Below, in pieces: positions 41,301-56,865 of a stretch of DNA of 64,000 nt. Below the pieces are notes generated by a model. It worked only from the letters and a program-made list of their open reading frames with translations, did not search any database and was not told where the DNA came from. The stretch lies in assembly GCF_964355755.1 (NCBI RefSeq), contig NC_092679.1, forward strand, positions 17,412,932-17,476,931. Direction: 5' to 3'. Within the stretch, counting starts at the first letter, position 1. Each line of letters begins with the position of its first letter. Position numbers and translations under genes: made by a program. The stretch comes from Antedon mediterranea (taxonomy: Eukaryota; Echinodermata; Crinoidea; Comatulida; Antedonidae).

Positions 41301-41905
41301 AGTGCTTATTGGTTGAAATAGTCACATGGTATAACCGTATCTAGGCTTATTTGACCTTTGCACTTGACAACCATAGGCTCAATAAGCCAGTCAGCATGTA
41401 AGGATTACACATAGTCTGGAGAAAAAGCCTAGATGAAAATACTAAATAAGTTGAAAGTAGTCAAGAAAACTTTATTTGATAAATATGTTGTTACTATATT
41501 TACATAAGATGGAAGTATATGTCTATTTGGTGACTTAAATGCTGCTTTTGTACTTTTCTGGCAGTTTATACGCCTATTAGCGTGGAAATACAATTCATTT
41601 TTTAGATCCATGAGTGCATGATTAAAAAAAAGTGTTGATTTTTCTTACCTTTTTGTTTGTTTTATTTAAACAGTATTTTTGTAAATGTAAATTATCTTAG
41701 TTGCCTGAATAAATAATAATGATAACTCCAAACTAAAAAATAGAACATGTTTTATTTGAAAGTATTTTAGTAATAATAATGTTTTGGCACGCATATCAGC
41801 AGGCATGGGATAAGTTCCTGAGGAGGGTTAAAAGCGGTCTAGCGCCCTCTATTTTAGTTAAAAGTTTCGTGCGAGAGTAGGTGTTGAACGTTTTAGAAAA
41901 ATTAT

Positions 41906-42124
41906 CCAATCGTTGTACCGAGAGTTTTCAGAATACCCGGGTAGCAACAGCAATATCTTTCCTGGCCAATCAGCGTATTCCAAAATGTCATCATGTAATT
42001 TGCATATAGTCTCAGCCAATCAAAGTAATTAATCTACAAGTTAACCCACATCAGACGAACTTATTTGCCTTTTTGTGCGCGGCAGTGAGGATCGGAAGAC
42101 GGTGTTAAAAAGAGAGCCGAGAAG
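41906..42124 (+). promoter_or_regulatory. CCAAT-box promoter-like segment and probable 5' exon
   Basis: Three same-strand CCAAT boxes lie at 41906, 41966 and 42016, spaced 60 and 50 bp. They are followed 48 bp later by a pyrimidine-tract start candidate, CCTTTTTG (about 42068). From there a GC-richer stretch without ATG runs to a good donor (GAGAAG|GTAGGT at 42124). It resembles a promoter plus 5'-TOP-like non-coding first exon. It could feed the transcript at 42.1-46.2 kb or be a distant 5' exon of SARS2. Confidence 0.5.
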
Positions 42125-42511
42125 GTAGGTGCTTTATTTGTTTGAATTATTAATAATAATACAGTACTTTTGATTGAGGAATCGACAACAAACAAAACAG
42201 CAAACTTCCGCCAGTTTTACTGGCCAGGATTACACAAGACAAGACAGACTTGAACTTGATTGAAGACGATAAACTTAGGTCTGGCCTAGGCCTAGCCGGC
42301 CCTCATCATGTGAACGTTTGCTATAGATGTTATATTACTGTTACTTAAGTTGAGTACAATATATAATAATTGTGACATTATACTTCTCTGTATTCTTAAT
42401 TTTGTTTTGGCCTATTGAATTGCCTACTTAGTTTGTTTCATCTATTGCCCAAAAATATTAAATTTAAATAGCCTAGTGTAATAAAATCAAATAATTTCTT
42501 TTGCAGGTGAC

Positions 42512-42661
42512 ATGTCTGATTTCAATTTTAAACCACAGTATTTATTGTTTAAAGAACAGTTAAAGAACAAAATGCTTTTCGTCTACCTACTTGAGTCTCT
42601 TGACCCTGTGTGTGTTAATGCAACATTTCAGCTTTGGAAAATGAACCAACATCAAGTATAA
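42512..42661 (+). CDS. uncharacterised small ORF, 49 aa
   Basis: ATG five bases after a good 3' splice site; reads MSDFNFKPQYLLFKEQLKNK and stops after MNQHQV. I recognise no family. If the internal donor CACA|GTATTT is used instead, it would splice to a 34-nt exon reading RRPIDEDIQNI. It could equally be chance, as the locus looks non-coding otherwise. Confidence 0.2.
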   Translation: MSDFNFKPQYLLFKEQLKNKMLFVYLLESLDPVCVNATFQLWKMNQHQV

Positions 42662-43050
42662 AACAATAGCAAGATAGCAGGTATTTTAGTGATAACCATC
42701 ACTGTCATCAGCTAGTAGTATACAACATTAAAATTACAGTTTGAACAGAACATTGCTGTCAACCATTCTGCATGTGCAGTCCTGAAATAAATTGACATTA
42801 AAGTTAATGAAACATTTGCCTTTTCAACATGTATGTACTTTTCATGTTCCAGTCGTAGGCCTATTGATGAAGACATCCAAAACATAGTAAGACTTAACCA
42901 ATAAAACCAATTAAACTAACATATAAATAATGCAAATTATCATATTTATCTATTTGTTAGTTTGTGGTTATTGCCTTGCAGGTGTACTAACACATTTTAG
43001 AGTAGAGTTTATATTCACAGGTTGATGATGATCTGGTCCTGGATTGAAGA

Positions 43051-43072
43051 CCCCCCCCCCCCCCCCCCCCCC
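43051..43072. repeat. 22-base C homopolymer
   Basis: Uninterrupted run of 22 cytosines (guanines on the other strand) in strongly AT-rich surroundings. It could form G-quadruplex or i-motif structures. A 13-C run is at 56148-56160 in a SARS2 intron. Confidence 0.95.
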
Positions 43073-44240
43073 GCCTCTTAAATCCATCCACATGCAAATA
43101 CAATATGATATATCATATACAAAATATATGATATAAAATATGTATTTGCTTGTAGGCTGTTGTATCATGCATTGATAGGATCATTAGGTTAAATTCTAAC
43201 TAAAATTTGTTTATCGGAAATGTATTACACTATAGTATTTTAAGTTTTCATGTTTTACTTGCAAAATATTATTTTTTTTGTCTGTTATAAAGGTATGTAT
43301 TGTATTATAACTATACATATTCATGTTTTATATAACAACAATTATAAATATATACAACTTCCTTTTATTGTAAACATTTTGTTTCAGTTACTAACACACA
43401 CAGTAGAATCAAGTCAAGAAAAGGCTGATTAATATGTATTGTTTTAAATTAAATAAACTGTTTATACAAATCTGTTGGCTTAATCATGGAATGTGAAAAG
43501 CTATGTGTATCACACAGTAGACATAATTAATGTCATATAAATATTTACAAAACATGAAAAGCTCATTGATATTAATTGTATGTTGTTATATACATTACTT
43601 AATTATATATTTATCATAATTACAATATTTACATGATTGTTACAATTGTTAGTTAATTATATTTAAATCGTATTTTAAAATTGAAAAAACTATTGCTTTA
43701 ATACTTCTATACCTATTATTATAACTAACACTTAGATAATGCATGATACAACTCCAGTTGTGCATTCCCCTATTTCTTTGCACACTGGTATTGTTTCCCC
43801 CTTCCCCACTTTTTTTAAAGGAAATGGAAGCACAAAGGTAGGTTACTAACGCAGCAAGACATCGCTTCGAGCATCCAAGCATCAAAACAAGTAAGATTTG
43901 TAACTAGCTGTTAGGGTTGTACTGTTGATGAAATGACACAATGTTTTGTTGTCTTCTTCTGTTGTTGCTATGATGATAGCTTTGCCATGATGCCTGATGG
44001 CATCTTGCGGCATCTTTTTTGTTGCATTGGTTTCATTGCTTGTTGTCATGATATGGCATGGTATCTACCTGTAAATCTACATTAGGGGCTTATTGTTTTT
44101 TATAGTTCGCTTTTTTTTTCTACAGATCATTTCATTTTGAATAAATTTTGTTCAAACAAAAGTGAGTCTATCTTTTTCTTTGTTTTATTGAACAAAAACA
44201 TAATTACACTTGATCATAATTTAAGTTCATTAATAAATTT

Positions 44241-45532
44241 AACAAATAAAATGTTTTGTTTGTGTCGTTTTATTTCTGTAGTTTAAAAAAGAATGATGTA
44301 TCACAATTATTAAAATTGAAAAATAAAGAAATAAAATATATGTGTCTGTTATTTATTTAAAAACATTTAATATGGATGTTTGTCTTTCATTGTGTAAACA
44401 ACATTCTCAATACATTGAAACTTTTTCCTTTTTTAGAGTGTGTATATATTGGTTTTGAAATCCACAGTCATTTTTTTTTTATAGTTTTCAATAAAAAATT
44501 TGAACAGCTAAAATGTTGTATTTATGTGTCTGTTTATTTCTTTAAAATGTAATGATGTATCATATTATTTAAAATCAAATATATTTTACAAATAAAAATG
44601 TGTGTTTGTGTCCTTTGTTTCATTATTACTGTAGTTTAAAAAAAACAGTCACAACATGTTTTCACATCACATCAGAACAATAATTTAATATTAACACTTT
44701 TTTCCTTTTTTAGAGTGTGTATATAATTATTGGTTTGGAAATCCACAGTCAAACCTGTTTTTCATAGTTTTCAATTAAAAAATTGAACTGCTAAAATGTT
44801 GTATTTTTGTGTCGGTTTTGTTTTGTGATGTATCATATAAAATCAATTTTACAAATAAAAATGTGTGTTTGTGTCCTTTGTTTTATTACCACTGTAGTTC
44901 AAAATAACATTCACAACATGTTTTCACATCACATCAGAGCAACAATTTAATGTTATTAAAAGTTTAAAAAAATTTATTTTTGTGTCTTTTGTAAAACTGC
45001 ATACATAATACATTGACAAAATATATATCACCTAAAACATAGTTGTCAAGTGAATAAAGAAAATAAATTGTCTGTGTCTATTTCATTAGTGTATGTTTAT
45101 TTGCATTTTGTTTATAGCATCAATCAATAATTCACTTAACAATTGTCTTGAATGTCTTTTTATTTCTACAGGTCACAGGTTAATTTTGAATAAATTTGTA
45201 TCAAAGCTTGGTGTCATTTGTCTTGTTTTATTATTTTAAGAAAAAATACTAAAGTTGGATAAAAGAAATTTGTAAATAAAAAATAAAAATGTTGTCTTTG
45301 TGTTTATTTATAAAAAAACATTGATATTCATTAAAATAACAGATTTATCTGTGTCTTCTATTTTATTAGAAAAACATTTTTTTAATATATTTTTCCATCA
45401 CATTTTTTTTGGTATAACATATTTTGAATTAAATGCAAATAACAAATGATTTGTTTTCTTTTTGTTAATTGTTTTTAAACATATAAATCTTAAAGCTTTT
45501 TGTGAAACATATCAAAAACTGTTGTTTGTGTC
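44241..45532 (+). repeat. diverged tandem array of poly(A)-site-like modules
   Basis: About a dozen units of 80-140 bp. Most carry AATAAA and, 10-35 bp later, TGTGTC plus a T-rich stretch. TGTGTC starts at 44261, 44341, 44525, 44607, 44808, 44870, 44981, 45073, 45350 and 45527, with GGTGTC at 45210. The clearest duplicate pair is about 44430-44690 versus 44715-44960 (shared AAATGTGTGTTTGTGTCCTT). No coding frame survives. Confidence 0.75.
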
Positions 45533-45697
45533 TAATTATTGCCATTCATTGAAAAATTATTTTATAGTTATTTTTCATTTATATGTCATGTGTTTTATCA
45601 TAATGTAAGTAGAAGTACACTGTTATAAAATCAACAAGATTTGAATGATGAAAACTACATAGTTCTTGTAATATAACTTGTTTTCCTTTTTTTGCAG

Positions 45698-46106
45698 ATT
45701 TTGAAAATGACGGTACTGATACAAGACTGGTTTCACCTATTACAGAATAGGTAGAGAATAATCCAATACATATGAGTATATAACTATAATTATTTCCCTT
45801 CTTTTTTTTTGCAGGTAATTGCCAGTAGGTACTGTTGTTTTGAACATAGATGGTTTGAACCAATCACAGGTAAGGTCAAGGAAATTACGTACAATGTGTA
45901 TATAAAACTATTTTGTTTTCTTCTTTATTGCAGAACTCTTGCAAATGGTCCAATGGATGTTGATTGAACCAATCACAGGTAAGGTATAAAAAAATTACAT
46001 ACATTGTGAATAACTATTTTTTACATCTTTATTGCAGATCCTCCAATAGAGTTGTTATAAGGCTGGTATAGACACTAATCTGCATAACTATTTTCTCCAT
46101 TTGCAG
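45698..46106 (+). repeat. tandem mini-exon/mini-intron array
   Basis: Three exon-like segments, 45698-45750, 45815-45869 and 45934-45978, each preceded by a pyrimidine-TTGCAG acceptor and followed by GTA(A/G)(A/G). They are separated by 58-64 bp related spacers. The last two end in the same AACCAATCACAG|GTAAGGT. Further acceptors end at 46037 and 46106. No common open frame. Confidence 0.65.
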
Positions 46107-46424
46107 ATTCTATTGTTTTGTTATTATTTGTGTTGATATGTTGACAAAACAATTTTTGTTTTGGCTTATGAATTTTAGTTCATGTGCAGGCTATATAATA
46201 GAGGGCGCTATTTTAATTTAGAATGATTTCTTGAAAATGCAGACCAACCAATAGAGGGCACTATAACGAAAACAAAATACACAACATGTGTGATCGAGTA
46301 AATTAATTGCACAAAGTACGCCTAAAGTATATTACTTTTAAACAAATTTAATTTTTTTTTTCAAATTGTGAAGTTTACATGTAAAGTTGTACAGTATTTT
46401 CCGATTATAAACTTTGAATATACC

Positions 46425-46698: not shown

Positions 46699-46812
46699 AA
46701 GTCGCCCCATCGCAAAGTCGCCCCATACAAAGTCGCCCAATACAAAGTCGCCCCATCGCAAAGTCGCCCCAAAACAAAGTCGCCCCGGCACAGTCGCCCC
46801 ATCGCAAAGTCC
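46699..46812. repeat. 16-bp minisatellite, about 7 copies
   Basis: Head-to-tail copies of AAAGTCGCCCCATCGC with small variants (ATACAAAGTCGCCCAA). It is GC-rich in an AT-rich region and lies 68 bp before the foldback element. Confidence 0.92.
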
Positions 46813-46880: not shown

Positions 46881-47594
46881 TGTTATGCGCGATTTGAACG
46901 ATTTGCGCAATTTAAAATTGCGCAAAGAATTCTTGCGCAATTTGAAATTGTGCAAGGATTTTCTTGCGCAATATTAAATTGCGCAATCAACTTGCAATTT
47001 GAAATTGCGCAAGATAGTTCTTGCGCAATATGACACCTTTGCGCACTTTGAAAACGAACTGTTTATTATTTTTATTATTGTACTCATTTGTTGTTGAGAA
47101 TGGTAGCCTACCGAAAGGTCGATCTTTTTTGTCATTAAATTTAATTTTTAAGTTAAATAGTAAACGTCTAATAATTCGTAATAATTATTGTTTCTAAAAA
47201 AAATCCAATCGTTATTAGTCTTATTAATTGTCATTAGTATTGATATTTGAATTGAAAGTATTATTTACTATTGGTATTTATTTATGCCTTCTCCTCATAC
47301 CATTGGGAATTCGAGATTTTTTTTATTCGGAAAAAAAAATTCGGGAGGGAAGCTCCCGGGAGGGTAAGGAAATGCGATATTATCTTTAATTTTGAATCAT
47401 TCTTAGAAATTACTAAACAAATAATGAAATATGGGTGTGCATGACTTCACAATCTGTGGAAAAACCTTGCGCAATTTGGAGATTACTTGCGCAATTTGAA
47501 ACACATTCAAGGAATTTTTTGCGCAATTTTAAATTGCGCAAGAAAATCCTTGCGCAATTTCAAATTGCGCAAATCGTTCAAATCGCGCATAACA
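46881..47594. mobile_element. foldback element with 44-bp terminal repeats built of GCGCAA units
   Basis: Left arm 46882-46925 begins GTTATGCGCGATTTGAACG. The right arm 47550-47593 is its reverse complement with one mismatch. Both subterminal regions (to about 47045 and from about 47465) are chains of TTGCGCAA(N)TTGCGCAA palindromes. The centre (47046-47460) is AT-rich and has no meaningful ORF. It lies about 100 bp upstream of the SARS2 start exon. Confidence 0.9.

Positions 47595-47716: not shown

Positions 47717-56865
<9,149 letters not shown>

Follow-up and report, generated by a model that had tools for sequence, protein, structure and literature searches.

Structure of the locus

The window analyzed here, a 64-kb stretch of the Antedon mediterranea genome, carries on its forward strand a candidate gene that comprises a promoter region with CCAAT boxes, two candidate exons, two conserved blocks with hairpins, an array of poly(A)-type signals, and four distal candidate mini-exons (Table 1).

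Table 1. Positions and main characteristics of the features of the candidate gene.
Feature	Position	Strand	Characteristics
Promoter region	41906-42070	+	CCAAT at 41906, 41966, and 42016
Candidate exon 1	42070-42124	+	Putative start; GAGAAG/GTAGGT, donor GTAGGT at 42125; a donor of like type follows the promoter region in the paralogs examined
Candidate exon 2	42507-42660	+	Preceded by TTTTGCAG; contains a 49-aa ORF
Block 1	42887-42981	+	Candidate mini-intron GTAAGA...CTTGCAG enclosing hairpin H1; conserved in paralogs
Hairpin H2	43080-43160	+	Fold z score -4.85 in the window
GTTGTATCATGCATT	43159-43173	+	Exact reverse complement of 43738-43752
Block 2	43738-43903	+	Hairpin H3, GGTAGGTTACTAACGCAG, invariant core from 43852, donor CAA/GTAAGAT (GTAAG at 43891)
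Array	44110-45532	+	AATAAA or ATTAAA, then TGTGTC or similar; acceptors, e.g., at 44110-44125, 44471-44484, and 45160-45171; 11 poly(A)-type sites sense, 0 antisense
TGTGTC	44261, 44341, 44525, 44607, 44808, 44870, 44981, 45073, 45350, 45527	+
GGTGTC	45210	+
Distal candidate mini-exons (four)	45698-45750, 45815-45869, 45934-45978, 46038-46066	+	Introns of ~60 nt; acceptor and donor signals identified by eye

Part of the promoter region (41932-42026) is conserved in paralog L030 (78% identity, 95 bases), and similar CCAAT regions lie upstream in L033, L036, L037, and L038, as well as in L032, L034, and L035. The ORF of candidate exon 2 is not conserved among the paralogs and had no match in Pfam. 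Hairpin H1 folds with z scores of -1.56 in the window, -3.89 in L032, and -5.98 in L034, and changes on both sides were seen in 2 of its 20 pairs, i.e., weak covariation, while the 3 of 26 pairs so changed in H2 amount to modest covariation. A long-range pairing between GTTGTATCATGCATT and its reverse complement in block 2 is possible; nine loci have an exact copy of the second arm, and L035 lacks the first. Block 2, defined from a six-locus alignment together with pattern searches, has a fold z score of -4.63. Within it, GGTAGGTTACTAACGCAG (window 43837-43855) combines a donor, a perfect branch-point-like TACTAAC, and an AG within 18 bases; this element is almost invariant across the ten family loci that have the core and is too short for a usual intron. 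From the core donor to the first acceptor that is followed by a hexamer, the distance in the window is 215 nt.

A DNA search found no further copy of the window's mini-exons (45698-46066). Two short minisatellites, at 46699-46811 (AAGTCGCCCC...) and 46903-47033 (TTGCGCAATTT...), lie between this gene and the next. In addition, AGAGGGCGC, which we take to be a CTCF-like motif, occurs in the window only at 41842-41850 and 46200-46208, in opposite orientations (the 41842 copy is inverted) and flanking the gene; related motifs were seen upstream of L033, L035, and L036.

An array of poly(A)-type signals on one strand

The initial annotation of this DNA counted ten TGTGTC elements plus one GGTGTC and viewed them as consecutive cleavage/polyadenylation sites. 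A pattern count in the window gave the same numbers on the + strand between 44,261 and 45,532, while GACACA, i.e., TGTGTC on the antisense strand, was absent from 44101-45540. When this interval was shuffled with its dinucleotides preserved, TGTGTC occurred 1.05 times on average (maximum 7) and none of 2000 shuffles reached ten, so that the chance expectation, put at well under one in that annotation, is in fact about one. AATAAA occurred 13 times vs. a shuffle mean of 3.9. Seven of the 11 GU-rich elements have an AATAAA 4-30 nt upstream, and all but the one at 45527 have AATAAA or ATTAAA 4-45 nt upstream (shuffles: mean 0.25, maximum 3). The sequence thus bears out the proposed order of hexamer, spacer, GU-rich element, and T-rich stretch. 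Since TGTGTC shows no excess across the whole 64 kb (29 vs. 29.5 expected), the signal is local.

The units had also been described as diverged tandem repeats, and we indeed found direct-repeat copies of 58-71 nt with 89-90% identity, 262-283 bp apart, the others being more diverged; Tandem Repeats Finder did not report the window units as a single array. About half of the units are preceded by a pyrimidine-rich AG acceptor, and five satisfy the stricter rule of acceptor, hexamer, and GU-rich element. These acceptors had been overlooked, as had the paralogs and the far larger arrays elsewhere in the genome. The link originally drawn between the array and the CCAAT promoter near 42 kb holds, as both lie on the same strand and belong to the same gene family.

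The array belongs to a dispersed gene family

The window promoter and the two conserved blocks upstream of the array define a dispersed family, for which we found 14 loci: nine with the invariant core, one degenerate, and four core-less relatives on contig C8. With 41,900-44,240 as query, a DNA search returned related places on contigs C2, C8, C10, and C11; on C5 the same query matched two places, over a 31-base stretch only and one of 30 bases. A search with the 22-mer of the core, allowing up to three mismatches, gave 12 matches, of which ten are family members and the other two have three mismatches each. A second family motif had nine exact matches, which are the nine full loci, and one further match with two mismatches. 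The ten core loci are therefore the window, L031 (whose upstream part is L030), L032-L038, and the degenerate L039. The donor CAA/GTAAGAT is kept in nine of the ten, having been lost in L035 and retained in L039, and in these nine loci 94-395 nt separate it from the first acceptor with a hexamer. The core donor was not seen in the four C8 loci, from all of which pattern searches also found the core to be absent.

A retroelement splits the closest paralog of the window gene (L030:3975-4699 and ~500-1220 nt before the core in L031; C10:18.89-18.90 Mb). The high identity of its two ends (99.6% over 725 bases) marks this insertion as young. ACAATTGTAAG, a palindrome overlapping a donor-like GTAAG, is repeated upstream of the core in L032, L034, L037, and L038, and so is GTTCCGGCCTAGATG.

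The family is probably noncoding. Rfam 15 gave no match in the window, and none at gathering score in 41900-46400 with lax filters. A coding reading was considered for the repeats of L032, L034, L037, and L038 (hereafter group A). Stop codons in the best frame numbered 2 of 506 codons in L032, 9 of 580 in L034, 28 of 892 in L037, and 26 of 994 in L038; because of these stops, no frame is kept across the loci and the coding reading was rejected, though 480 open codons leave coding possible in L032.

Arrays recur at the same position in the paralogs

Clear sense-strand arrays of AATAAA followed by a GU-rich element were found in 12 of the 14 loci, with 6 sites up to 451 units (one 35-kb array); L035, a full locus, has a marginal array, and L039, the degenerate one, has none. 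Counts were taken over 1.6 kb after the core, and each region was shuffled 200 times. Hexamers with a GU-rich element numbered 11, 9, 12, 6, 8, 3, 9, 15, 12, and 1 on the sense strand (window, then L031-L039) and were absent from the antisense strand except for one in L036. In eight of the ten core loci the count of poly(A)-type sites exceeded all 200 shuffles, while L035 (3) equaled the shuffle maximum and L039 (1) fell within the shuffled range. At most three such sites occurred in any of 310 control windows, which overlapped, covered both strands, and included six with more than 70% AT. Units bearing an acceptor numbered 5, 1, 10, 2, 7, 1, 5, 12, 7, and 0 in the same order and were absent from every antisense strand; six of the ten loci lay above their shuffles, and L031, L033, L035, and L039 did not exceed the shuffle maximum.

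The arrays searched with do not consist of one unit scattered through the genome. In searches whose matches represent lower bounds, the window array matched itself and one weak place elsewhere (77% over ~80 nt); the L036 array matched L036, L033, and a stretch of 57 bases on contig C6; and the L037 array matched the four group A loci and an array at C8:8.608-8.634 Mb. On these matches we rejected a dispersed satellite, i.e., one unit spread genome-wide apart from a single gene family. The initial annotation had named an ordinary dispersed satellite as the finding that would count against its proposal; for the window array this did not hold, and paralogous genes have arrays of their own at the corresponding place.

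Group A units are ~86 bp long and consist of TTTCTTTCACAG, an A/T-rich stretch with AATAAA, and TTGTCTGTGTCTTTTATTT. Their form is that of a minimal terminal exon, with a pyrimidine tract, CACAG, AATAAA ~19 nt further on, and TTGTCTGTGTC. In 47 units anchored on AAATGGTTGTC, patterns found AATAAA kept in 43 and the acceptor in 35; because the anchor adjoins the GU-rich element, its presence in 47 of 47 is biased. Mean identity was 0.940 in the AATAAA columns vs. 0.878 elsewhere, with columns near the anchor favored; an earlier alignment was anchored on AATAAA itself and hence biased. A pattern for the group A form matched 27 times; the four group A loci account for 20 of these, and the remaining 7 lie at separate places. 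The gap of ~19 nt between acceptor and hexamer in most of these units is too short to hold a coding cistron, and a trans-spliced operon was rejected on this ground. The group B units (arrays of L033 and L036) contain long inverted repeats, ACAGTTCATGTGAGCAGT...ACTGCTAATGTGAACTGT, which are hairpin-like. Some window units aligned with group A units, e.g., at a score of 50 (shuffle maximum 28; L032), and others with group B units, e.g., at 47 (shuffle maximum 35; L036). Since both exceed their shuffles, the arrays share ancestry, and across the groups the DNA between the conserved blocks is mostly unalignable.

The largest array, the C8 array matched by L037, consists of 63-64-bp units over ~35 kb. 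In 30,242 bases of it (5 kb in the middle left out), TGTGTC occurred 624 times and its complement not once. Of the 451 units found there, 418 span 80% or more of the model, and hexamer and GU-rich element are both present in 408 of them, with an identity of 0.970 in the AATAAA columns. DNA downstream of this array aligned with two family loci at a Smith-Waterman score of 48 (shuffle maxima 34 and 37) and did not rise above shuffles with three others. A search with the array itself, which is incomplete since its own source is absent from the matches, gave at least three further C8 places (7.86, 11.82, and 13.70 Mb), a weak C5 match, and L037. At 7.86 Mb, hairpin block 1 precedes the array (81% over 157 bases), and a short family remnant follows the array in all four C8 loci (71-77% over 56-95 bases). 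Acceptors are sparse in the C8 arrays, most units having none.

The window pattern is not a general poly(A) code of this genome, since AATAAA...TGTGTC (3855 + 2863 matches) shows no excess over the reversed pattern (4556 + 5041), in counts that include repeated elements and differ between the two strands. As judged by eye, tubulin 3' ends mostly have TGTGTT-like rather than TGTGTC elements, in a sample where a script located the right end in 20 of 24 loci (all but L005, L013, L019, and L025). Among these 24 loci, retrieved by their tubulin C-terminal domain, a cluster of 15 matches lies at C7:24.31-24.43 Mb.

The array appears to lie within an intron

Distal acceptors and repeats were found in the sequence of the window, L032-L034, and L036-L038. 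Beyond the array, the part of L037 examined contains 46.8 copies of a 57-bp repeat and L033 contains 20.1 copies of a 55-bp repeat, while by eye L036 has six mini-exons of 40-48 nt with introns of ~60 nt, which the window mini-exons resemble. Because these distal acceptors and repeat exons follow the array, it appears to lie within an intron in the loci that have them.

What the arrays may do

The signals, their order, their strand, and their recurrence at the same position in paralogs are features of the sequence itself; from these we infer that the predicted start, the splice sites, and the poly(A) signals may be in use and that two outcomes may compete. We propose, with a probability of about one half, that the array serves a multi-copy, probably noncoding family of Pol II genes as a device for intronic polyadenylation, ending transcripts early in competition with splicing to the distal exons. 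Transcription would start near 42.07 kb and, with splicing, pass the conserved donor at 43891. Next, the transcript would run into around twelve poly(A) sites in tandem, and many of these would be minimal terminal exons consisting of a 3' splice site, AATAAA, a cleavage region, and a GU-rich element. Every unit would offer a chance of being spliced in, cleaved, and polyadenylated, and transcripts that escape could splice to the distal mini-exons, an outcome with which ending in the array would compete. The idea of a poly(A)-site array is partly supported, by its signal order and tandem amplification, while a plain transcript end or blocker fits less well than intronic alternative terminal exons, since a 3' splice site is present in many units and the array is flanked by a conserved donor upstream and candidate exons downstream. 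Against the intronic polyadenylation reading we count L035, which only equals its shuffle maximum, and L039, which has the donor without an array, as well as the acceptor-bearing units of L031, L033, L035, and L039, no more numerous than the shuffle maximum, the acceptors kept in only 35 of 47 group A units, the acceptor-poor C8 arrays, the lack of a genome-wide pattern excess, and the TGTGTT-like tubulin ends.

The main rival, neutral satellite-like growth, is serious, since the C8 arrays demonstrate how readily units multiply, although we consider it the less probable explanation. An ancestral terminal exon would have expanded by unequal exchange, one unit sufficing and the rest having no role; the growth of units alone could be neutral. 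Unit number and sequence vary widely among loci, one array of 63-64-bp units reaches 35 kb, and the window itself contains recent local duplications, all of which speak for such growth. Against it, signal order and strand persist in the differing units of groups whose other DNA is mostly unalignable. The somewhat better preservation of the signal columns (0.940 vs. 0.878 in group A; 0.970 on C8) points the same way, although anchoring near the GU-rich element favors that side.

Poly(A) sites promote termination, and the array might instead be a transcription blocker or insulator shielding the next gene, which is seryl-tRNA-synthetase-like, with a class II synthetase domain at 54658-55074, and lies downstream on the same strand. 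The AGAGGGCGC copies at 41842 (inverted) and 46200, the only ones in the window, would suit such a role by flanking the gene. We regard it as very unlikely, since the paralogs sit elsewhere in the genome yet bear arrays, and the flanking motif was not found in the group A stretches examined. Least probable of all is a binding array, in which an RNA with many GU-rich and ACUAAC-like elements would titrate an RNA-binding protein (candidate partners of such elements are CstF-64, CELF, and STAR proteins): TACTAACA-like motifs are repeated upstream and the C8 array has hundreds of GU elements, but a decoy needs neither AATAAA spacing nor acceptors, and cleavage at the units would strip much of the array from the RNA.

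Intronic polyadenylation, the reading we prefer, has partial counterparts in known systems. GU-rich elements of the YGUGUUYY and UGUGUU types are reported for animals (PMC1539018). The skipped terminal exon, described in PMC5928244 as a kind of intronic polyadenylation, has, as proposed for the present units, an upstream donor, a new acceptor, and a short exon whose end is a poly(A) site within the intron, with AAUAAA or AUUAAA; the required pair of hexamer and GU-rich element was found in the window, most core paralogs, group A, and C8. The present case differs in its tandem units, in its multi-copy and probably noncoding family, in that the sites are candidates, and in that some units have no acceptor. 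In the CstF-77 gene, a conserved poly(A) site within an intron serves as an attenuator, competing with splicing and lowering the full-length product (PMC3708835). The competition proposed here would be alike, but CstF-77 is a protein gene with one experimentally tested site, whereas our arrays of sites are deduced from sequence. Satellite and minisatellite DNA shares the head-to-tail units, the variable copy number, and the periods (86 bp in group A, 63-64 bp on C8), but the arrays described here adjoin members of one gene family, on the sense strand, and with a common signal order despite different unit sequences. A literature search, which reached few subscription journals, yielded no paper describing arrays of terminal exons in tandem; one paper, PMC8555548, uses the phrase "tandem terminal exons".

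A further, more speculative step, which we think improbable but worth stating, is that the family uses its arrays as serial poly(A) attenuators. With each unit acting as one more trial, the number of units would determine the amount of transcript that gets through to the distal repeat exons. The family would adjust this amount through the gain and loss of units, with as many as several hundred sites at one locus.

Studies of how splicing and polyadenylation compete usually deal with single sites. Our findings point to a multi-copy family of structured RNA genes without a match in the version of Rfam searched, and such rows of signals in sister copies suggest a device for ending RNAs early. Since these paralogs form a series with a common donor and very different numbers of sites, they could be used to measure the effect of site number on the choice of 3' end.
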